From contig SDOA01000140.1 of NCBI GenBank assembly GCA_004524595.1, forward strand, positions 1-9,363: a stretch of 9,363 nucleotides of DNA, in the 5' to 3' direction. The first letter of the stretch is position 1. The number at the start of each line of letters is the position of its first letter. A program made the translations under genes and the position numbers. This stretch comes from Candidatus Thorarchaeota archaeon. Lineage in GTDB: Archaea; Asgardarchaeota; Thorarchaeia; Thorarchaeales; Thorarchaeaceae. This document shows positions 1-9,363 of the stretch, in pieces. The notes under the pieces were generated by a model. It saw only the letters and a program-made list of their open reading frames with translations. It had not been told where the DNA came from and searched no databases.

Positions 1-435
1 TGGGATTGCCAATTCCTTTGTCAGGTAAGGATCTTCACTAAAGTATTCAAATGTCCGTCCATTTAAAGGAGTCCTAGCAATGTTCATACCCGGAGCAAGC
101 AGAACATGTCTACCCACAGCACGGACCTCTTTGCCCATGGCAACCCCAATCTGATATGCAAGATCACGATTCCAAGATGCAGCTAGGCTTATTGTGGCGG
201 GGAACCGTGTATTTTTCTTGAACCCACTTGAGTGCATTGCCACACCAAGTGGTCCATCAGTTGTCTTGAATGAAGGAATTCTGAGTCGTTTGATTGGAGC
301 AGTCGTGTATATCCTTAACCACCCTTGACTTGAAAGAAGTCTGAATTTTTCTTTAAGCGTTAGTCTAGAGAGAAGGTCCGTCACTCTATTCTCAACGTCT
401 GAACTATCATCTAAATAGACAGGATCTTCATTCAT
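1..435 (-). CDS. GH3 family beta-glucosidase-type glycoside hydrolase, N-terminal part (cut by window edge)
   Basis: Reading the minus strand from an ATG at 435 gives 145 residues open to the window edge. They match the N-terminal TIM-barrel domain of glycoside hydrolase family 3. Visible landmarks are LTLKEK (about residues 26-31), TDGPLGV (59-65), FPATISLAASWN (77-88), GRHVLLAPGMNIARTP (103-118) and GRTFEYFSEDPYL (about 121-133), the family's substrate-pocket motifs in the usual order. The catalytic Asp nucleophile, the second alpha/beta domain and any fibronectin-III-like C-terminus lie outside the window. There is no signal peptide, so the enzyme is probably cytosolic and acts on imported or internal beta-glycosides; the exact sugar cannot be told. 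A second in-frame ATG at 456 would add seven residues (MFASCRS); neither start has a clear SD. The gene follows the FdhD-like gene by 27-48 nt on the same strand, so co-transcription is likely although no functional link is apparent. Confidence 0.93.
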   Translation of the reverse strand, partial: MNEDPVYLDDSSDVENRVTDLLSRLTLKEKFRLLSSQGWLRIYTTAPIKRLRIPSFKTTDGPLGVAMHSSGFKKNTRFPATISLAASWNRDLAYQIGVAMGKEVRAVGRHVLLAPGMNIARTPLNGRTFEYFSEDPYLTKELAIP

Positions 436-483
436 AGATCTACAGGATGCAAACATGACATTATTGTCTTTCGGAAGTCTAGT

Positions 484-1191
484 TCAACCTATGTCTATTT
501 TTACAGAACCTTCATGGTACACCCAACACTGTTTATCTGAAAAGGCTCCAATGAGAGTCGTATTTGATTCTCTTGCGATTTCGATTCCTCTCTCTGTTGC
601 AACAGTCATCGATGCTATCAACGGTATTCCAACATTACATCCCTTATTGACAACATTCGAAGTGAGTCTACCAGTAATTAATAAGACACAATCTTGGAGT
701 AGATAGCCATTCTGTGCGCAATAACCAATGACCTTATTCACCGTATTCTTTCTGTCAATATCCTCACAGGTGAACCACCTCCCTGTTGCATGTTCACGGA
801 GAATGGCTCCATGAAAGGCTCCTGTGGCGGTATGGTCTCGTTGATTATTGCATAGATCGTTGAATATCTCCTTTAATGCACTTAATTTGATACTCTCAAA
901 ACTTGTAGTTCGCGCTACATCCCTATGAGTTGGTGATATTGTAGACACCTTACAGAATGAGTCTGTTATTTCTAAACTACTTACCTCTTCAAGGCTCTCA
1001 ATTATTCCCTTAGAAAGAAGATGTCCTAGTACTAAGGATTCTTCAAGTCCCGGTGAAAATGTGAATCTTGTGTCAAAGTTATCATTAACGAATAGATCTA
1101 GCTGTGATTCTTTGGCAATTCTTTCTCTCATGACTTTCCTTGAATTTCCCTGTATCATATGACATTCAATTTCACTCACTCTGGCTATCAC
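484..1191 (-). CDS. fdhD: FdhD-family sulfurtransferase/chaperone-like protein lacking CxxC
   Basis: The protein (235 residues from GTG at 1191) follows the FdhD/NarQ fold. It has an N-terminal segment with SPGLEESLVLGHLLSKGII (like the family's 'PGDLEDLALGFLLTEGII'), then TGAFHGAIL (TGGxHxA motif), CEDIDRKNTVNKVIG (family EDxGRHNAVDKxxG) and ITGRLTSNVVNKGCNVGIP (family SGRxSxEMVxKxxxxGIP). E. coli FdhD passes sulfur from IscS to the molybdopterin cofactor of formate dehydrogenase through a CxxC loop. Here the loop before the central helix (TTSFESIKLS) has no cysteine, and the GRHNAVDK site reads DRKNTVNK. Cofactor binding may persist while sulfur transfer is altered or lost. No formate dehydrogenase is in view; the only metal-pterin enzyme here is the aldehyde oxidoreductase about 4 kb away. 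A GTG three codons upstream (1200) is also in frame, but it lies inside the SD. Family assignment is firm, function uncertain. Confidence 0.82.
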   Translation of the reverse strand: MIARVSEIECHMIQGNSRKVMRERIAKESQLDLFVNDNFDTRFTFSPGLEESLVLGHLLSKGIIESLEEVSSLEITDSFCKVSTISPTHRDVARTTSFESIKLSALKEIFNDLCNNQRDHTATGAFHGAILREHATGRWFTCEDIDRKNTVNKVIGYCAQNGYLLQDCVLLITGRLTSNVVNKGCNVGIPLIASMTVATERGIEIARESNTTLIGAFSDKQCWVYHEGSVKIDIG

Positions 1192-1197
1192 TGAGAC

Positions 1198-1203
1198 CAC
1201 CTC
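1198..1203 (-). promoter_or_regulatory. Shine-Dalgarno deciding the FdhD-like start
   Basis: GAGGTG on the minus strand sits six bases before the GTG at 1191 and reads on as GAGGTGGTC, close to the archaeal anti-SD complement GAGGTGATC. It overlaps the upstream in-frame GTG at 1200, which is therefore unlikely to be the start. Confidence 0.7.
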
Positions 1204-1794: not shown

Positions 1795-3888
1795 TTGAAA
1801 CAGAATATACTTCTAATACTTATGATGATAATACTTATCAATTCAAATTCGGAAGCTACTGCATTATCGTTAACCTCTGCAACTTTCGAACCCTCGAAAT
1901 TTGTCCTCTCTGAAACTGAGTTAGCAATCTATGAATTGGTAACTCCTGTTGTTAATGAAACCTACGTACAAAATCTTGCATCCTCACTTTTTGGCATTCA
2001 TGATTTAATTGCTGTGGAAGAAGAAGGAGTCTACTTTGTCAATTGGAGTAATATCTACCTTGAGGTTGACTCATCGGATGGGTCAATCTGGTATGCTGAT
2101 TATGACCGACTCTGGAATATATCATCTGGTGACAATCTTCCCTATGCATCAGAGAGCCAGGCAATTGTTGATGCTTGGGTTGCTGAAACAGGTCTTATTC
2201 CTGCGAATGCTTTTTTTGCAGGACTAGGAACGACCAATGCTACAATTTACAACATTGACACTCATGTGATGTACTCAAAGATAATGCACTATCACTTTAA
2301 CTATGCATTTGACATGGGTGAGATTCCAATATCTGAGCAGACAGCACAAATCTCTGTGATAGTTGGTGAAAGTGGAGAGATTACTGGATCAGCTGAGAAT
2401 ATTGTGGGATTAGATTGGAAGTGGCGAGACATCAATCCGACTCCATATGCACATGCACTCCTCATCGAGTTTGATTCAATTTTGGCAACATATGGAATTT
2501 CAGCTGATGATGTAGTGACTTACAGTCTAGTATATGAAACCGGTGAAGAAGATTCGAACAACGACCTCCTCTATCCAATCTATGATGTAACTCTCATTGA
2601 AACCAACGGGGATGGATATAAAGTTGAATACAATCTGAAGTTTGCCGCTACTGAGTTTCAACCATTTACAGGGATTATACAACCCGCAAGTGCCATCACA
2701 GTACAACCTGGATTCCCAATTACCTTCGACTGTCAGGTATCCTATGGAACACCTCCCTATCAATATCTGTGGCATTCCCTTATTGATGGCGTACTGAGTA
2801 ATTCCAAGAGTTTCACTACTTCTACTCTCTCAGAGGCATTCAAAGAGAATACACCTATTCCACATCCAATTATACTGACTGTCAAAGACTCAGAGGATCA
2901 ATTTAGTCGTGATATCGTTGCAGTTACAATTGACTCAACTGCTCCTTTGAGCATTAATCCCACTATTGTGATAATCGCACTTGGAGCAATAGCTCTTTTA
3001 GTAATATTTCTTATTGTTGTGAAAAAGAAAGGTTTTCTTGTCGTCCCTTTTCTATTTCTAGTACTTTCTGCTTTCTTACTCATACCAATCACTTCCGCAA
3101 ATACTCATGATGCAACCAAAATTGAATACAGACCAAATGCCCCTACGGGAGCTTTTGATGATGATACAAAAGAAGTTGGCGTTGAATGGGTTGGTCTATC
3201 ATATGAAGATCGATTGACTCGTTCCGAACCAGACGCAGGTAGGTTTTACCACCACATGGGAACCACAGGTGGCTATAGTCAGGAATTCAATTGGGGTGAG
3301 TGGAATGCCTGGGAAACGGACTTCAGAGATGCCTCTGAACACGATGGCAATGATACCGAGTGGGTTGATGCAGTGGACTTTGTGTACTATGCTGGACATG
3401 GCAATTCTCTCTCGATATCTTTCACATCTGACCAAGATGACGAGTATGCCTATTTCTCTGATATGAAACTTGGTGATGGAGACCTCGAAACTCTTGCCAT
3501 GACATCATGTAATGTTTTGGATTTCTATAATTGGGGCGGCAATATATTCGAACTCTGGGGTCCAGTTCTACAGGGTGTTCACCAAATCTGCGGATTCCAG
3601 ACGGGAGCAAAGAACTCTGATAGTATGGGACTAAAATTTGCTCTGTATATGACTGGTCTATATCCACTTCCAGCCCTCACAATTATGGAATCCTGGTTCA
3701 GAGCTGGTATTGAGTGTCAGCCCTCTGACAAGAAAGTTGCAGTATTTTATGGAACAAACTCAACCAATCCATTTTATCCTCAACTAGATGATCCAATAAA
3801 TGATCATGCGAAAGGATTTGGATATGTCTGCTCTGATCCCTTACCGGAGAATATGATGTGGTATGTTTACATAACATGCAACTGCTAG
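1795..3888 (+). CDS. Secreted/membrane protein with C-terminal DUF6345 (caspase-like) domain
   Basis: The 697-residue protein has a signal peptide at about residues 1-22. Residues 25-290 form a beta-rich region resembling the N-terminal half of other DUF6345 proteins, with PepSY-like stretches such as 'ISVIVGESGEITG' (187-199). Residues 292-380 look like a PKD/Ig-like domain (GTPPYQYLWHS; PIILTVKDSEDQFS). A membrane helix at about 388-409 ends in KKK, and a second hydrophobic segment spans 414-432. The C-terminal domain (about 455-697) matches DUF6345: WETDFRD, VDAVDFVYYAGHGN (His535) and LAMTSCNVL (Cys572). A His-Gly after one hydrophobic strand and a Cys after the next is the dyad arrangement of clan CD peptidases (caspase, gingipain, CHAT). 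Both large soluble parts should face outside. Activity and substrate are unknown; the family is described mainly by sequence. It is transcribed alone, convergent with the 155-residue gene. Confidence 0.85.
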   Translation: MKQNILLILMMIILINSNSEATALSLTSATFEPSKFVLSETELAIYELVTPVVNETYVQNLASSLFGIHDLIAVEEEGVYFVNWSNIYLEVDSSDGSIWYADYDRLWNISSGDNLPYASESQAIVDAWVAETGLIPANAFFAGLGTTNATIYNIDTHVMYSKIMHYHFNYAFDMGEIPISEQTAQISVIVGESGEITGSAENIVGLDWKWRDINPTPYAHALLIEFDSILATYGISADDVVTYSLVYETGEEDSNNDLLYPIYDVTLIETNGDGYKVEYNLKFAATEFQPFTGIIQPASAITVQPGFPITFDCQVSYGTPPYQYLWHSLIDGVLSNSKSFTTSTLSEAFKENTPIPHPIILTVKDSEDQFSRDIVAVTIDSTAPLSINPTIVIIALGAIALLVIFLIVVKKKGFLVVPFLFLVLSAFLLIPITSANTHDATKIEYRPNAPTGAFDDDTKEVGVEWVGLSYEDRLTRSEPDAGRFYHHMGTTGGYSQEFNWGEWNAWETDFRDASEHDGNDTEWVDAVDFVYYAGHGNSLSISFTSDQDDEYAYFSDMKLGDGDLETLAMTSCNVLDFYNWGGNIFELWGPVLQGVHQICGFQTGAKNSDSMGLKFALYMTGLYPLPALTIMESWFRAGIECQPSDKKVAVFYGTNSTNPFYPQLDDPINDHAKGFGYVCSDPLPENMMWYVYITCNC

Positions 3889-4490: not shown

Positions 4491-4928
4491 CTATCCTCTT
4501 TTAGGTTTCTTCTTTATCGTTAGAAGTTTCTTTACATCTTCGAATTTATTAAAGGGGGGCGTCTTGATATGCAACCATCTACCATCATGATACTGTTTGG
4601 TATTAACGAATATATCAACCATCTCAGAACTAAACTCAGCTTTAGAGTTCTTGAAATTCTCAACTTCTTTCTTTCCAAATATTATAAGAATGGTAAGTTC
4701 TCCCTTTTTTGGATAGAATGTCAATAATGTTTTACCACTTCTTCGATAACGAATAGTAGCGTCCAATCCCTCGCCACTTCTCACAGGCTCAAATTCATAA
4801 TTCTCATTCAGATAATTCGCTATTTTTCTCCACATGTTTCCAGCTTGTTTTCCAAGAAACTTGTAGATTTCCTCTTCTGAAGGCTCTTTACCTATCTCAG
4901 GTATTTTTTCCTTAACCACATCATTCAC
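4491..4928 (-). CDS. DUF3788 family protein
   Basis: The protein resembles the small DUF3788 family of bacteria and archaea. It has an N-terminal EPSEEEIYKFLGKQ (family: P-s-eel-lg), then MWRKIANYLNENYEFEP, a strand-rich centre TLLTFYPKKGELTILIIFGKKE (family: kTlLyP..G.f...i.lGkkE, here residues 66-87 from GTG4928) and a basic end EDVKKLLTIKKKPKRG (family: DvkkLi.iKrkP). The family is of unknown biochemical role and about 140-150 residues long, which suits the GTG at 4928 (145 residues) with SD AGAGGA six bases upstream. An in-frame ATG at 4976 would add sixteen residues (MVCEDRHIFKKRR...) and overlap the preceding stop as TAATG, a coupling arrangement, but it has no well-placed SD. Either way the gene is in an operon directly behind the oxidoreductase-ligase fusion. 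Confidence 0.78.
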   Translation of the reverse strand: MNDVVKEKIPEIGKEPSEEEIYKFLGKQAGNMWRKIANYLNENYEFEPVRSGEGLDATIRYRRSGKTLLTFYPKKGELTILIIFGKKEVENFKNSKAEFSSEMVDIFVNTKQYHDGRWLHIKTPPFNKFEDVKKLLTIKKKPKRG

Positions 4929-4934
4929 CAAATT

Positions 4935-4940
4935 TCCTCT
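4935..4940 (-). promoter_or_regulatory. Shine-Dalgarno favouring the internal GTG start of the DUF3788 gene
   Basis: AGAGGA on the minus strand lies six bases before GTG at 4928. The upstream ATG at 4976 has its nearest SD-like AGAGGA about sixteen bases away, too far for normal initiation, though it could start by coupling at TAATG. Confidence 0.5.
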
Positions 4941-4975
4941 TCTTTTTTTGAAGATATGTCTATCTTCACAAACCA

Positions 4976-7900
4976 TTATAGCTTCGAAAGTTCCTCTTCT
5001 CGAAGTTTCTTCTTGAAGAGCTTCATAACAACAGTCATCGGTAGTTCATCTCTGAATTCTACCCACTTTGGTATTGCGTATGGTTTTACCTTATCCTTGA
5101 GAAAATCTATGATGTCCTGTTCACTGACCTTACCCTTGTAACCATGCTTTAATTGGATGAACGCCTTTACCCGTTCGCTCCCTGGTCTCTCTGGGTCCGG
5201 AATTCCAATCACACCGGCAATCTCCACTGCTTCATGCTCGTGGAGGATATCATCAATCACTCTGCTGTAGACCTTGTTTCCTGATACATTGATCATGTCT
5301 TTGATTCGGTCGACAACTTTGAAGTATCCATCATTATCCATCTCTACGACATCACCCATCGGGAGCCAACCTCCGTCTTTGAGACCACTACCTTGAGTTG
5401 GCCAGTACCCAATCATAGTCTGGGGGCCGCGTATCCATAGCTCTCCTCTACTGCCAATAGGTAATTCTTCTCCTGTATCCGGATCTACAATCTTGATCTC
5501 AGTGTCGGGAATCGGTATTCCTACACCTCTCTTCGTTTCAGCCATGAATCCAGTCACCTTTGAGAGTGCTGAAACATTGATTGTGACAACACAAGAGGTC
5601 TCTGTGGCACCATAACCCTCCCCCATAGGCACTCCTGACTTTTCTTCAAAATCTTCTGCGAGTTCTTCTGGTAGGGCTGCAGCTCCTGAGAAATAGAAAA
5701 TCTGAGCCTTTACTAAATCCATCTGTGAGAGGAAGGTGTAATGTGTCGGCACTGCGAAAACAATGAAGGGTCTATGCGCATTGATTGTTTCGACTATCTT
5801 TGGGATGTCCCGAGAGTCCATCAGATGCATCTTGATTCCCCAAGAGATACAGGCGTGAACAGCCCAGTGTCCATAGGCATGGAATATCGGAATGCAGACA
5901 ACAGCAGAGCTCTTTCCAATGATTCCTTCCTTTAGGGGTTCCATCATCCAGTGAATAGACTGTCGTATGTTTGATGTGATATTGAAATGTGAGAGCATGG
6001 TTCCCTTGGGTTGACCTGTTGTTCCTCCAGTAAATGGAAGCAGAGCGATATCTTCCTTCGGGTTGATTTCGACAGTTTCAGTGTGCGGTTCGTATTTCTC
6101 AATCAAGTCACTCATAAGGTAATAGTTCTCATCCTGAATCTCCTCCATCTCTGGGTACTCATAATCGGGAAAGAGCTTTGTTGGTGCGTAGATGATAGTT
6201 TGGATGTCAGTATCTAATCTGACCTCGTTAAGCCGTTCAATTCTACGATAGGAGCAGATGACAATCTTTGCTTTACTCTCTTTGAGTTCATATCTCAGGT
6301 CATCAGCATTGTGAAGGATACTGAGAGGAACGTGTATCGCACCGATCTTCATGGCGGCATAATCTGCAATTATGAATTCGGGACATCCAGGAAGGACAGT
6401 AGCTACTGGGTCACCTTTATTGACACCAAGAGCAACAAGAGCTGATGCTAATCTATCGACTTTCTCCTTTAGTTCTGGATAGGTCATATCATCTCCTGCA
6501 TATTCACAAGCAATAACATCTGGAAACTCTGTGGCAGTATTCTCAAGAAACTTGTAGACATTCATTTCAGGATATGGTGCCATGGAGTGTTTAATCTTGA
6601 ATGGTCCAATTCTATAGCTCTCTAACCAAGGTTTCTCTCCCTTGATTTCTATAACTTCAATTAGCTCCTCATCAGATGTTACTAGGGTCTCTAACTGTCT
6701 GGCTGATTTCTTCTTCTGCATTTCCTTTGTTTGTGTGGGTTTTCCGTGAACAGTTTCAATCACCCAATCGAGACCTAATTCCTCAAGTTTCTCCTTTGTT
6801 GGTCTTCCCTCTTCATCCCACCCACGAAACTGATAGTATGCATCGAGAAGGATGTCTAAGTTTACTACATGACCTTTTGCTGGTCCTTCAGGCAATGGGT
6901 CTTCTAACATTCTGGGCGGCAATGTATCATCTTCTCTTGTAAATCCCTCACGGATAATGTATGCCCTCTCTAGATTGTAAATCCTCTCACCTGTCTTTCG
7001 AAACTCATCCGCCGTATAATCGAGACCCATGAGGGTTCCCATGAGACATGCCCAATCCTCAGCTGTTAAGACCATGCCCATGAACTTGCAGCCACCGATG
7101 GCATCAAAGATCCCGAATGCATCCTCGAAGTTTTTGACAATCTTTGTTGTTTCAGGAATCTCCTTCAAAGGGTCTCCAATGTCTGCCTCTTCAACAATCA
7201 TGAATGGCATTGCCAGAAATGCTGGTCCCTCAATATAAGCAGTGATATGGTCTCCACCTCGATTGGCAGTTGCATAGGCAAGCCCTGTGATCTTTGCTGC
7301 ACGGCTGTCATACCCTGGAAGTTCGAGACCCTTGACATGCATAGCGAACCTCTCAGATCCCTGCCCAAGTCTTTCAGATATTCTCTTGGTTCCCTCAGCA
7401 AGGAGGTTTCCAACACCTTCACGTTTACCTATCTTGTGAACGATGTCTACAATTAACTGAGCATTACCCCATGAGAAATCCATTCCATCGACATCTTCAG
7501 GTTGCAAGATTCCCCGTTGATAGCATTCCATTGCAAAGCCTATAGTATTTCCTGCTGAGATTGTATCTATTCCATACTCGTTACAAAGAAAGTGTGCAAG
7601 TGTAATTGCCTCCAGACTATCTACTCCGCACATTGTGCCAAAGGAACTGAGAGTCTCGTATTCAGGTCCTTCCCCTTTACTCTTGAAGGGTCCTGACTTA
7701 ATCTCAGCAATTCTCCCACAATGAATCGGACACGCAAAACATGGTTTCCTCTTCACTAGGATATTGTCATTGATTGCTGTCCCATTGATCTTCTCAGCAT
7801 TCTCAAAAACGCCAGTCTGCCAATTCCTTGTTGGAATGCCACCTTTAACACTGACGAGATCTACCATTGTTGCAGTGCCATAGACTTCAAGGGTCATCTT

Positions 7901-8614
7901 CAGGATACTCTGATTCACCCAATCAAACCTTTGTTTTGCTTCCACTCGATATGCTTCTTCGTCTGCAATTGGAATTTTCATTGTACCTCTCGATGCGATA
8001 GCCTTGAGATTCTTAGAACCCATGACTGCTCCAACGCCACAACGTCCGGCCGCGCGACCCCAGTTCTCTTCGTCACAATCGTTCATGATTGCAGCGTACT
8101 TTACAAGATTCTCACCTGCAATACCAATACAAGCCACATTAAACTTCTCTCCGTGTTTCTCCTTCAGTAGTCTTGTGGTCTCAGATGAATTCTTTCCCCA
8201 TAATTCCTCAGCATCTAATAGCTCTGCTTCACCATTCTCAGTCAGTAGGTAGACAGGTCTTGGTGCCTTTCCTTCGAAAATAATCCCATCAAATCCAGAT
8301 CGTTTGAAGTCTCGACCCCAGAATCCAGCAGAGTTAGCCTGACCCCATCCATTTGTTAATGGTGCTTTTGTTACTACACTGTATCTTCCAGTACTCGGAG
8401 ATTGTGTTCCTGTAAGTGGGCCAGTCATAAAGATGAGTTTGTTTTCAGGGCTAAGCGGATCAATTCCTGGTTCAGTTTCATCAAAGAGAATCTTGGTAGC
8501 GAGTCCTGCACCTCCAAGGTATTTTCGTAATGTTTCATCATCAGGGACTTCCTCAGTTATATTTCCGGTTGTCAGATTGACTCGTAGAATTTTCCCCATA
8601 TAACCGTGAATCAT
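4976..8614 (-). CDS. Aldehyde:ferredoxin oxidoreductase fused to AMP-forming acyl-CoA synthetase
   Basis: One 1212-residue chain holds two full enzymes. Residues 1-625 are a complete AOR: the N-terminal GYMGKILRVNLTTG, the iron-sulfur cysteines CFACPIHC (292, 295, 299) with the fourth in FDAIGGCKF (Cys509), GPEYETL (316-322), CNEYGIDTISAGNTIGFAME (344-363), and LAYATANRGGDHITA with His456 in the position of the active-site His. Residues about 661-1212 are a FadD-like ligase: KPWLESY start, P-loop FTGGTTGQPKG (861-871), GYGATETS (1000-1007), MGDVV (1086-1090), VDRIKDMINVSGNKVY (1101-1116) and a C-terminal Lys1198. A charged linker of about 35 residues joins them. Expected reactions: aldehyde + water + oxidised ferredoxin to acid, then acid + ATP + CoA to acyl-CoA + AMP + PPi, in the cytosol. 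The AOR half needs tungsto- or molybdopterin. ATG 8614 has SD GAGGT six bases upstream. Metal and substrate are not determinable. Confidence 0.95.
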   Translation of the reverse strand: MIHGYMGKILRVNLTTGNITEEVPDDETLRKYLGGAGLATKILFDETEPGIDPLSPENKLIFMTGPLTGTQSPSTGRYSVVTKAPLTNGWGQANSAGFWGRDFKRSGFDGIIFEGKAPRPVYLLTENGEAELLDAEELWGKNSSETTRLLKEKHGEKFNVACIGIAGENLVKYAAIMNDCDEENWGRAAGRCGVGAVMGSKNLKAIASRGTMKIPIADEEAYRVEAKQRFDWVNQSILKMTLEVYGTATMVDLVSVKGGIPTRNWQTGVFENAEKINGTAINDNILVKRKPCFACPIHCGRIAEIKSGPFKSKGEGPEYETLSSFGTMCGVDSLEAITLAHFLCNEYGIDTISAGNTIGFAMECYQRGILQPEDVDGMDFSWGNAQLIVDIVHKIGKREGVGNLLAEGTKRISERLGQGSERFAMHVKGLELPGYDSRAAKITGLAYATANRGGDHITAYIEGPAFLAMPFMIVEEADIGDPLKEIPETTKIVKNFEDAFGIFDAIGGCKFMGMVLTAEDWACLMGTLMGLDYTADEFRKTGERIYNLERAYIIREGFTREDDTLPPRMLEDPLPEGPAKGHVVNLDILLDAYYQFRGWDEEGRPTKEKLEELGLDWVIETVHGKPTQTKEMQKKKSARQLETLVTSDEELIEVIEIKGEKPWLESYRIGPFKIKHSMAPYPEMNVYKFLENTATEFPDVIACEYAGDDMTYPELKEKVDRLASALVALGVNKGDPVATVLPGCPEFIIADYAAMKIGAIHVPLSILHNADDLRYELKESKAKIVICSYRRIERLNEVRLDTDIQTIIYAPTKLFPDYEYPEMEEIQDENYYLMSDLIEKYEPHTETVEINPKEDIALLPFTGGTTGQPKGTMLSHFNITSNIRQSIHWMMEPLKEGIIGKSSAVVCIPIFHAYGHWAVHACISWGIKMHLMDSRDIPKIVETINAHRPFIVFAVPTHYTFLSQMDLVKAQIFYFSGAAALPEELAEDFEEKSGVPMGEGYGATETSCVVTINVSALSKVTGFMAETKRGVGIPIPDTEIKIVDPDTGEELPIGSRGELWIRGPQTMIGYWPTQGSGLKDGGWLPMGDVVEMDNDGYFKVVDRIKDMINVSGNKVYSRVIDDILHEHEAVEIAGVIGIPDPERPGSERVKAFIQLKHGYKGKVSEQDIIDFLKDKVKPYAIPKWVEFRDELPMTVVMKLFKKKLREEELSKL

Positions 8615-8695: not shown

Positions 8696-8977
8696 ATGCA
8701 TGTATTTGTCCAGTTCTATGCTCATCTGAGAGACCTCCTGGAAAAGAGAGAGAAGATAGAGATTGAATTGGATCATAATGCTACAGTTTCCCAACTATTA
8801 GATGTACTCATTCTGGATGAAAAAATACGAGAGCATTTATTTGATGATGCCCAGAAACTCAATTCTGAAATTACTGTTTTAATTAATGGCCGTGAAATAA
8901 AATTCCTCGAAGGTATTGATACTGTTCTTAAAGAGGGCGACTCAGTTTCGATTTTCCCGATGGTTGCAGGTGGATAG
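8696..8977 (+). CDS. moaD: MoaD/ThiS-family sulfur carrier protein
   Basis: The 93-residue ubiquitin-fold protein starts with the first strand MHVFVQFYAHLRDLL, typical of MoaD ('vkVkfFa.lRe'). It has a helix TVSQLLDVLI (29-38), ITVLINGREIKFLEG (59-73) and the closing LKEGDSVSIFPMVAGG, with the C-terminal Gly-Gly that MoeB/ThiF-type enzymes adenylate and load with sulfur. In molybdenum/tungsten cofactor synthesis the thiocarboxylated tail gives the dithiolene sulfurs of molybdopterin through MoaE. GAGGA six bases upstream supports ATG 8696. It is divergent from the AOR-containing gene across a common promoter, and MoaD genes are often found beside AOR genes, so it probably serves that cofactor. 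A tRNA-thiolation (SAMP/Urm1-like) role is the main alternative. Confidence 0.9.
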   Translation: MHVFVQFYAHLRDLLEKREKIEIELDHNATVSQLLDVLILDEKIREHLFDDAQKLNSEITVLINGREIKFLEGIDTVLKEGDSVSIFPMVAGG

Positions 8978-9008: not shown

Positions 9009-9035
9009 TTGAGGAAAACATAGAATTTGATTACA

Positions 9036-9363
9036 ATGGCGAAATTCATGTCTGATGAGTGGTTGAATCTATACGAGACGGCACTCAACAAAAACGAAGC
9101 TTATGCAAAAGCTGCAGATTGGTGGACTGGGGACTTCATCTTCATTGTAAAAGCTAGTGGAAGCTTAGACCATGATATCATGGGTTTCATTGGCTTAACC
9201 CACGGTAAATGCACTGGTGTAAAGCCAATCGTAAGTGAAAGTGAATTTGAAATAGTTCCTCCTGGTGGAAGTTCGAGCAGTCCTGGCAAGACTGCTGTGG
9301 AGTATACATATGAGGCAACACAGGATACTTGGATCTCTATCATCAAAGGCGAGCTTGACCCAA
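9036..9363 (+). CDS. SCP2 sterol-carrier-like protein, N-terminal part (cut by window edge)
   Basis: From ATG 9036 the frame stays open for 109 residues to the window end. It begins MAKFMSDEWLNLYETALNKN and continues KAADWWTGDFIFIVKASG, the pattern of archaeal and bacterial stand-alone SCP2-domain proteins (start 'kflSdeWi..y.ealN.n', then a strand pair). Strands then alternate through KCTGVKPIVSES, FEIVPPG and VEYTYEATQDTWISIIKGELDP, the last resembling the SCP2 'dafl.il.Gel.p' turn. SCP2 proteins bind sterols, fatty acids or acyl-CoAs in a hydrophobic tunnel in the cytosol. The C-terminal helices are beyond the edge. A second in-frame ATG at 9048 is possible. Its position beside an acyl-CoA synthetase fusion hints at lipid handling, which is an inference. 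Confidence 0.75.
   Translation, partial: MAKFMSDEWLNLYETALNKNEAYAKAADWWTGDFIFIVKASGSLDHDIMGFIGLTHGKCTGVKPIVSESEFEIVPPGGSSSSPGKTAVEYTYEATQDTWISIIKGELDP

Follow-up and report, generated by a model that had tools for sequence, protein, structure and literature searches.

The 9,363 nucleotides of contig SDOA01000140.1 from a Candidatus Thorarchaeota archaeon (this whole stretch is called the window below) raise the question of whether an aldehyde:ferredoxin oxidoreductase (AOR) and an AMP-forming acyl-CoA synthetase (ACS) can be halves of a single protein and, if so, how that protein arose and what it does. A sequence-only reading of the window had claimed such a single-chain fusion, and the claim was borne out. 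An uninterrupted open reading frame (ORF) with an ATG start was found at positions 4976..8614 of the minus strand, which encodes 1212 amino acids, and four Pfam domains scored above their cut-offs. These were AFOR_N at residues 7-211 (E 1e-78, positions 1-199 of 199 of the profile covered), AFOR_C at residues 239-615 (E 1e-140, positions 17-385 of 385 covered), AMP-binding at residues 690-1071 (E 3e-87) and AMP-binding_C at residues 1120-1195 (E 3e-12). Beyond these four no Pfam match was obtained for the ORF at E <= 0.001. The chain is a complete AOR and a complete ACS, fused in frame, and the fusion is real. It is composed of the following parts, where P-loop, A5 and A8 are the names that we take to apply to the ACS motifs:

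6761..8614, minus strand: AOR half, residues 1-618, a tungsten-type aldehyde:ferredoxin oxidoreductase with Cys292/295/299/509, Glu320 and His456
6653..6760, minus strand: linker, about residues 619-654, charged, variable and stop-free, distinguished by its substitution pattern and its low model confidence
4979..6652, minus strand: ACS half, residues 655-1212, AMP-forming, with P-loop 861-867, A5 1000-1005, A8 Arg1103 and the C-terminal Lys1198

An artefact of assembly or frameshifting was ruled out, because among the 120 matches listed of the 294 obtained with the full-length protein at least 47, from several sources, carried both AFOR_C and AMP-binding; all four domains were present in at least 37 of them. 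The protein searches scored about 8000 candidates that shared most words with the query and had 0.55-1.75 times its length. Among the matches listed, 32 full-length homologues were 78-90% identical to the window protein from end to end, and those with a name were Candidatus Thorarchaeota. Another four were 62-64% identical, one of them labelled Hodarchaeota, and P0048 is a Hodarchaeota-labelled fragment of this second type. Where the fused rows showed a legible name, it was Thorarchaeota, Hodarchaeota or, once, a truncated 'Promethe...', and the fused loci of the GTDB collection (L001-L005, L007-L010, L013) were labelled Thorarchaeota. A search with the ACS half (120 listed of 141 matches) yielded no protein with AOR and AMP-binding domains beyond this set, and hence added none outside Asgard. 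A stop codon or frameshift between the domains had been named as the observation that would overturn the fusion; none was detected, and the two-gene form occurs in other lineages only. L013 in genome G188, a candidate split gene, was also ruled out, as the match stops at residue 674 with an N run after the linker, followed by an unrelated in-frame gene. L008 in G214 lacks the N-terminal part and lies next to an N run.

Both halves had been described as complete with their signature residues, and the named residues proved to be right. Cys292/295/299/509 and His456 aligned with residues of Pyrococcus furiosus AOR (PfAOR, chain 1aor), and Glu320 aligned with PfAOR Glu313; we take the four cysteines to be cluster ligands and Glu and His to have an acid-base role in PfAOR. 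Conservation was scored in AOR halves longer than 590 and ACS halves longer than 530 amino acids from a set of 83, some rows being near-copies. Cys292, Cys295, Cys299, Cys509, Glu320 and His456 were invariant in 74/74 AOR rows. Invariant in 76/76 ACS rows were FTGGTTG (861-867), G1000, G1002, E1005, D1088, D1102, R1103, K1105, D1106, K1198 and K1201, and K870 was kept in 75 of the 76. By its AFOR domains, cluster cysteines and active-site Glu and His the first half is classified as a member of the AOR family, and by both Pfam domains and the motif residues the second is classified as an ANL acyl-CoA synthetase. CoA-acylating aldehyde dehydrogenases are recognised by an aldehyde dehydrogenase domain; at E <= 0.001 Pfam detected none in the ORF, which does not belong to that family.

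The ratio of nonsynonymous to synonymous substitution rates (dN/dS) was calculated for 15 pairs from six fused genes. Most pairs had saturated dS; dS was <2 in every region for just three pairs, those formed by L003, L093 and L094, none of which involves the window's gene. In these three, dN/dS was 0.031-0.048 in the AOR half, 0.046-0.060 in the ACS half and 0.32-0.64 in a linker of 37 codons. Purifying selection acts on both halves. In more distant fused pairs the linker ratio was 0.27 to 1.45 or gave no value. Between the window's gene and other fused genes dN was 0.056-0.091 in the AOR half, 0.092-0.169 in the ACS half and 0.81-1.63 in the linker, with dS mostly saturated. The linker had been described as charged, in frame and about 35 residues long, close to the roughly 36 found here, and its sequences in the Thorarchaeota-type and Hodarchaeota-type proteins were dissimilar by eye. 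In a structure model of the fused protein with a predicted template modelling score (pTM) of 0.84, the per-residue confidence (pLDDT) was <50 at model residues 615-643, which correspond to ORF residues 627-655 and thus to most of the linker. A linker this variable speaks for a tether more than for a fixed tunnel.

How widespread the fusion is was determined in 227 Asgard genomes. A match at E <= 1e-150 was found in 107 of them, mostly to AOR paralogues, and an orthologue of either half (>= about 57% identity) in 45; these counts are lower bounds, as few candidates were scored per genome and the list ends at E 1e-150. The gene was fused in 11 of the 45 genomes. It was full-length in G001, G207, G005, G195 and G196, and cut by contig ends or N runs and open across the linker in G188, G193, G206, G211, G213 and G214. 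Separate, adjacent AOR and ACS genes were present in 29 genomes (e.g., L006, L011, L012, L014). In 29/29 of these loci the two genes share a strand, with AOR immediately upstream of ACS; by our own ORF calls the spacing is -25 to 72 nt, and the ACS reading frames of G101 and G046 run off the contig. Three genomes (G119, G052, G205) had only the first part of the AOR gene before the contig end.

To this distribution trees of the two halves were added, each with 56 rows that remained after 14 of the 83 rows with a short half and then 13 close copies had been dropped; the AOR tree had two outgroups in addition and the ACS tree had none. Rows were grouped as fused or unfused by gene structure, not by the trees. 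The 25 Thorarchaeota-type fused rows formed one clade (support 100/100 for AOR, 100/99 for ACS), and so did the four Hodarchaeota-type fused rows (99/97 and 100/99). In both trees unfused pairs lay between the two fused clades, and none of the 27 unfused rows fell within the 25-row clade. Forcing all fused rows together cost the AOR tree 124 log units (approximately unbiased (AU) test, p 2.4e-6) and the ACS tree 291 log units (AU p 3.3e-29). A single fused clade, and with it a single origin of the fusion, was rejected by both trees and the AU tests, the ACS tree being without outgroup. Going beyond the sequence-only reading, the two-gene arrangement is likely to be the ancestral state, and fusion probably happened twice. 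Judged from these trees, an ancestral Asgard AOR-ACS gene pair that was fused at least twice would be the simplest history, and a single old fusion that was split again several times would need more changes.

What the fused protein might do was approached via its neighbours, which were surveyed at 40 loci with an orthologue of the AOR or the ACS half. The window itself contains the following genes besides the fusion:

9027..9362, plus strand: SCP2-type lipid-carrier gene, truncated where the window ends, in one cluster with full-length SCP2-type relatives
8696..8977, plus strand, divergent: MoaD/SAMP1-type small sulfur-carrier gene (ThiS E 2e-14; SAMP1 and moaD_arch above cut-off)
4491-4976, minus strand: DUF3788 gene, its start codon overlapping the last base of the stop codon of the fused gene
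1795-3888, plus strand: DUF6345 protein of 697 amino acids, probably secreted
484-1200, minus strand: FdhD/NarQ family gene (Pfam E 4e-39), presumably a sulfurtransferase for the formate dehydrogenase cofactor
1-456, minus strand: incomplete glycoside hydrolase family 3 gene, truncated at the window edge

At 35 of the 40 loci an SCP2-type gene was found no more than 1 kb from AOR-ACS. The cut piece in the window gave no Pfam match itself; three of four full-length cluster members tested matched Pfam SCP2 above cut-off, and one member matched the Thermus thermophilus SCP2 structure 2cx7 with E 6e-13. The SCP2-type protein of G001 was matched closely (72-100% identity) in 8 of the 11 fused genomes and by a distant full-length paralogue (39-45%) in 8/11, the latter never more than once per genome; one of the 11 had no match. 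A second conserved neighbour of 136 amino acids occurred in 14/40 loci (e.g., L107:8648-9058, L092:12155-12565). It had no Pfam match, and all 21 structures matched by its model (pLDDT 89) at E <= 0.001 were SCP2/UbiJ structures (best E 7e-5, TM-score by query 0.47-0.62, identity 11-18%), so that an SCP2-like fold is predicted, which is a prediction of fold and not of function. SCP2 domains bind varied hydrophobic ligands, and this lipid-carrier context, another addition to the sequence-only reading, suggests a substrate class.

The reading that we favour, with somewhat better than even confidence, is that one chain derived from a gene pair converts a hydrophobic aldehyde via the acid to acyl-CoA; direction, substrate class, electron acceptor and acid handover are what we infer. 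The AOR half, with tungstopterin and a [4Fe-4S] cluster, would oxidize the aldehyde to the carboxylic acid, with ferredoxin accepting two electrons. The ACS half would then convert acid and ATP to acyl-AMP, and this to acyl-CoA with release of AMP and pyrophosphate (PPi). The acyl-CoA could enter beta-oxidation. The substrate would probably be a long-chain, branched or isoprenoid aldehyde, because one or two SCP2-type carriers adjoin, and these would probably carry the hydrophobic substrate or product. This order of steps is proposed because the free acid is the product of AOR and the substrate of ACS, so that no unusual chemistry is needed. It had already been suggested from the sequence, and it gained support from the adjacency of the pair in 29 genomes, the fusion in two clades and the SCP2-type neighbours. 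Neighbouring genes for an iron-containing alcohol dehydrogenase (within 1 kb in 6/40 loci) and for thiolase and DUF35 proteins (two loci) count in favour of the proposed route as well. Acid/aldehyde couples lie at about -560 mV, so ferredoxin can be reduced, and CoA-acylating oxidation, at about -400 mV, suits NAD better. The pull by pyrophosphate release that the sequence-only reading had proposed may add to this on general thermodynamic grounds. The route would spend ATP to AMP and PPi and leave both electrons on ferredoxin, and fusion would fix the two activities at 1:1 and shorten the path of the acid. The acyl-CoA may have an outlet, because acyl-CoA dehydrogenase and 3-hydroxyacyl-CoA dehydrogenase domains were present in 11/11 fused genomes. 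This evidence is weak, because most control genomes carry both families too (10/14 and 14/14, respectively).

Several observations weigh against this reading or parts of it. The substrate class is inferred from neighbour genes alone, and the SCP2-type neighbours may serve another step. No SCP2-type gene was found within 1 kb in 5/40 loci. Two of these are incomplete (L012 is cut on both sides, and L008 has an N run inside AOR); L086 lacks the gene on its 1.5 kb AOR-side flank, and the long flanks of L108 and L105 are also without it. The SCP2 cluster member of L006 was the one of the four tested without a Pfam SCP2 match. The ACS half stayed under the NCBIfam cut-off in the best 25 of 108 families and was not assigned to a substrate subfamily, its top match PRK06187.1 reaching 370.9 bits against a cut-off of 476. 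With respect to the acceptor, the title of 9mqx, a solved AOR no more distant than PfAOR, describes electron bifurcation with NADH. With respect to direction, a reverse reaction in vitro is described in a passage of PMC6365974 for the archaeal AOR and AORMt, at <0.3% of the forward rate. An ACS gene without adjacent AOR gene was present on megabase-sized contigs of G056 (L105) and G125 (L106), for which loss, rearrangement or misassembly are candidate causes. Furthermore, some unfused pairs are placed differently by the AOR and ACS trees. In the AOR tree L076 (G117) has L077 (G121) as its sister (100/94), and in the ACS tree the two are found on opposite sides; the ACS of seven Lokiarchaeota-like loci (L076, L078-L081, L083, L099) belongs to the Hodarchaeota side. 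Therefore, strict co-evolution of the two partners is unsupported and partners may have been exchanged; these trees make it probable that the ACS partner was swapped while gene order was retained, or that there is hidden paralogy. As a separate observation, the ACS frame of G125 also lacks the first ~117 aligned residues.

The alternative that survives best, with a chance only a little below even, conflicts with the favoured reading solely on the handover of the acid. It holds that the fusion does nothing but fix 1:1 expression, with the acid released and the halves independent. Unfused adjacent pairs suffice in 29 genomes, and a linker that varies and is modelled with low confidence speaks against a rigid tunnel; retention of the free acid inside the protein, a part of the sequence-only reading, is accordingly conjectural. 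On the other side, fusion was repeated in genes that were already adjacent, which suggests that covalent joining itself pays somehow, and the pTM of the model is a hint that its two large domains are arranged in a defined way.

The same reactions might also serve peptide fermentation, with an aromatic or short branched aldehyde derived from amino acids as substrate and the SCP2-type neighbours serving something else. This seems rather unlikely, although a passage of PMC6365974 has AOR acting on phenylacetaldehyde in anaerobic phenylalanine breakdown in Aromatoleum and the fold matches of the ACS half include benzoate, coumarate and feruloyl ligases. The frequency of SCP2-type genes, together with the second SCP2-like neighbour, speaks against it, as do genes for thiolases and ChsH2-like DUF35 proteins near the pair in L011/L108 and L073 (Pfam domains checked for L011). 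Two L011 thiolases matched several PDB thiolase types, including SCP2-thiolase and lipid-transfer protein, and allowed no clear call.

A reverse flow, in which acyl-CoA or acid would be converted to the aldehyde with reduced ferredoxin and a neighbouring iron-containing alcohol dehydrogenase (Fe-ADH) would form the alcohol to dispose of electrons or to supply lipid synthesis, appears improbable. It would need the ACS half to run backwards on AMP and PPi, which is presumably unfavourable where pyrophosphate is hydrolysed. An Fe-ADH cluster was indeed present in 8/40 loci (6 within 1 kb, 2 at about 6.5 kb; Pfam on one member), but it had no member in the 9 fused loci surveyed. Slow acid reduction by AOR has been published, yet at tiny rates (a passage of PMC6365974).

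Carboxylate reductases (CAR) couple adenylation to reduction, an adenylation domain being followed by a carrier (PP-binding) and an NADPH reductase domain. A CAR-like action, in which an acid, once activated by the ACS half, is reduced as acyl-AMP or acyl-CoA to the aldehyde at the AOR half, would find a parallel in BamB of benzoyl-CoA reductase, an AOR-fold protein solved with a CoA thioester (4z3w), but is very improbable, given that the ORF lacks carrier and reductase domains (Pfam, E <= 0.001) and is no CAR, that the AOR half scored far above BamB with AORs (553.3 bits with 1aor, 227.6 with 4z3w in PDB sequence comparison), and that Glu320 and His456 are kept throughout.

A more far-reaching version of the favoured aldehyde-to-acyl-CoA route is a twice-evolved, single-chain enzyme driven by tungsten and ATP, to which SCP2 delivers lipid aldehydes (fatty, isoprenoid or sterol-like) and which passes the acid from site to site without release. 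We regard it as doubtful. If true, it would be an entry of lipid aldehydes into beta-oxidation that is independent of NAD and oxygen, with all electrons at ferredoxin potential.

The remaining neighbours were more variable. The MoaD/SAMP1-type cluster lay within 3 kb of AOR-ACS in 15/40 loci, and its product probably serves the tungstopterin cofactor; MoaD-AOR gene neighbourhoods are already described in a passage of PMC2948915. The DUF3788 gene had no clustered relative in the other 43 loci compared. Tandem DUF6345 relatives adjoined AOR-ACS in L107 (two) and L092 (three), FdhD/NarQ cluster members lay near it in L107 and L095, and a relative of the glycoside hydrolase family 3 gene was seen in L092. 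In L085, L087, L088, L089 and L090 a block of AOR, ACS, SCP2 and Fe-ADH genes adjoined a small HMG-CoA_red_N / C-glycoside deglycosidase beta gene. These five loci also carried a class-III aminotransferase and an FGGY kinase, and four of the five a RuBisCO-like protein (one member of each tested), possibly a further pathway. A scan of the stretch for sigma-70 promoters and terminators returned 12 and 4 sites, respectively, with 9.7 and 3.5 expected.

Each soil Asgard genome encodes several AORs, of which some rank among the most expressed genes, and for most families of AOR no biochemical characterisation exists (both according to passages of PMC11291895). The conserved set of AOR, ACS and SCP2 genes, with its fusion in two clades, ties one AOR subfamily to acyl-CoA formation as the following step and to a likely substrate class; its function is therefore directly testable. 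If the favoured reading is true, archaeal relatives of eukaryotes would have a defined route from aldehyde to acyl-CoA that yields ferredoxin electrons at the cost of ATP. In addition, the repeated fusion offers a natural test of the idea that enzymes gain from being joined because an intermediate is handed over.

Each half belongs to a known family, and it is the combination, apparently convergent, that is undescribed as far as searched. The remark of the sequence-only reading that no characterised enzyme of this architecture is known still stands: no description of an AOR-ACS fusion was found in the open-licence literature, which was the scope of that search, subscription papers and preprints lying outside it. 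AOR-ACS chains are already deposited as 'aldehyde ferredoxin oxidoreductase C-terminal domain-containing protein' or 'hypothetical protein'. The AORs of Pyrococcus furiosus (1aor) and Clostridium autoethanogenum (AFOR, 9g7j) end after ~605 residues and have no ligase, whereas the window chain continues into ACS. The ACS half has the Pfam domains and motifs in common with ANL ligases such as Archaeoglobus fulgidus FadD1 (3g7s, its best-scoring PDB ligase by sequence) and feruloyl-CoA synthetase (8wev). It is about 25-30% identical to the solved ANL ligases and, unlike them, has an N-terminal AOR.

AOR is also joined to other partners. Many rows of the set P0051-P0094, P0101, P0103, P0108 and P0113 had a C-terminal domain of hexulose-6-phosphate-synthase (HPS) type (~830 amino acids), and in the same set Fe-ADH preceded AOR (~1000 amino acids; P0108 and P0113 are named Asgard and Heimdallarchaeota); domain order was checked for few rows. 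In these AOR-HPS-type and Fe-ADH-AOR fusions the partner may make the aldehyde, whereas the partner described here would consume the AOR product.

Among pathways, the step after AOR in Aromatoleum aromaticum is taken by a separate CoA ligase. In its phenylalanine breakdown a tungsten enzyme converts aldehyde to acid, as proposed here, but with separate enzymes and a multi-subunit AOR that can use NAD, where the window has one chain (a passage of PMC6365974). In archaeal alkane oxidation by Ethanoperedens, from alkyl-CoM to acyl-CoA, AOR has likewise been proposed to act en route to acyl-CoA; Ethanoperedens and Syntrophoarchaeum encode no acyl-CoA synthetases according to passages of PMC10811742, which mention no fusion, and the Asgard chain, in contrast, carries its synthetase within the same protein.

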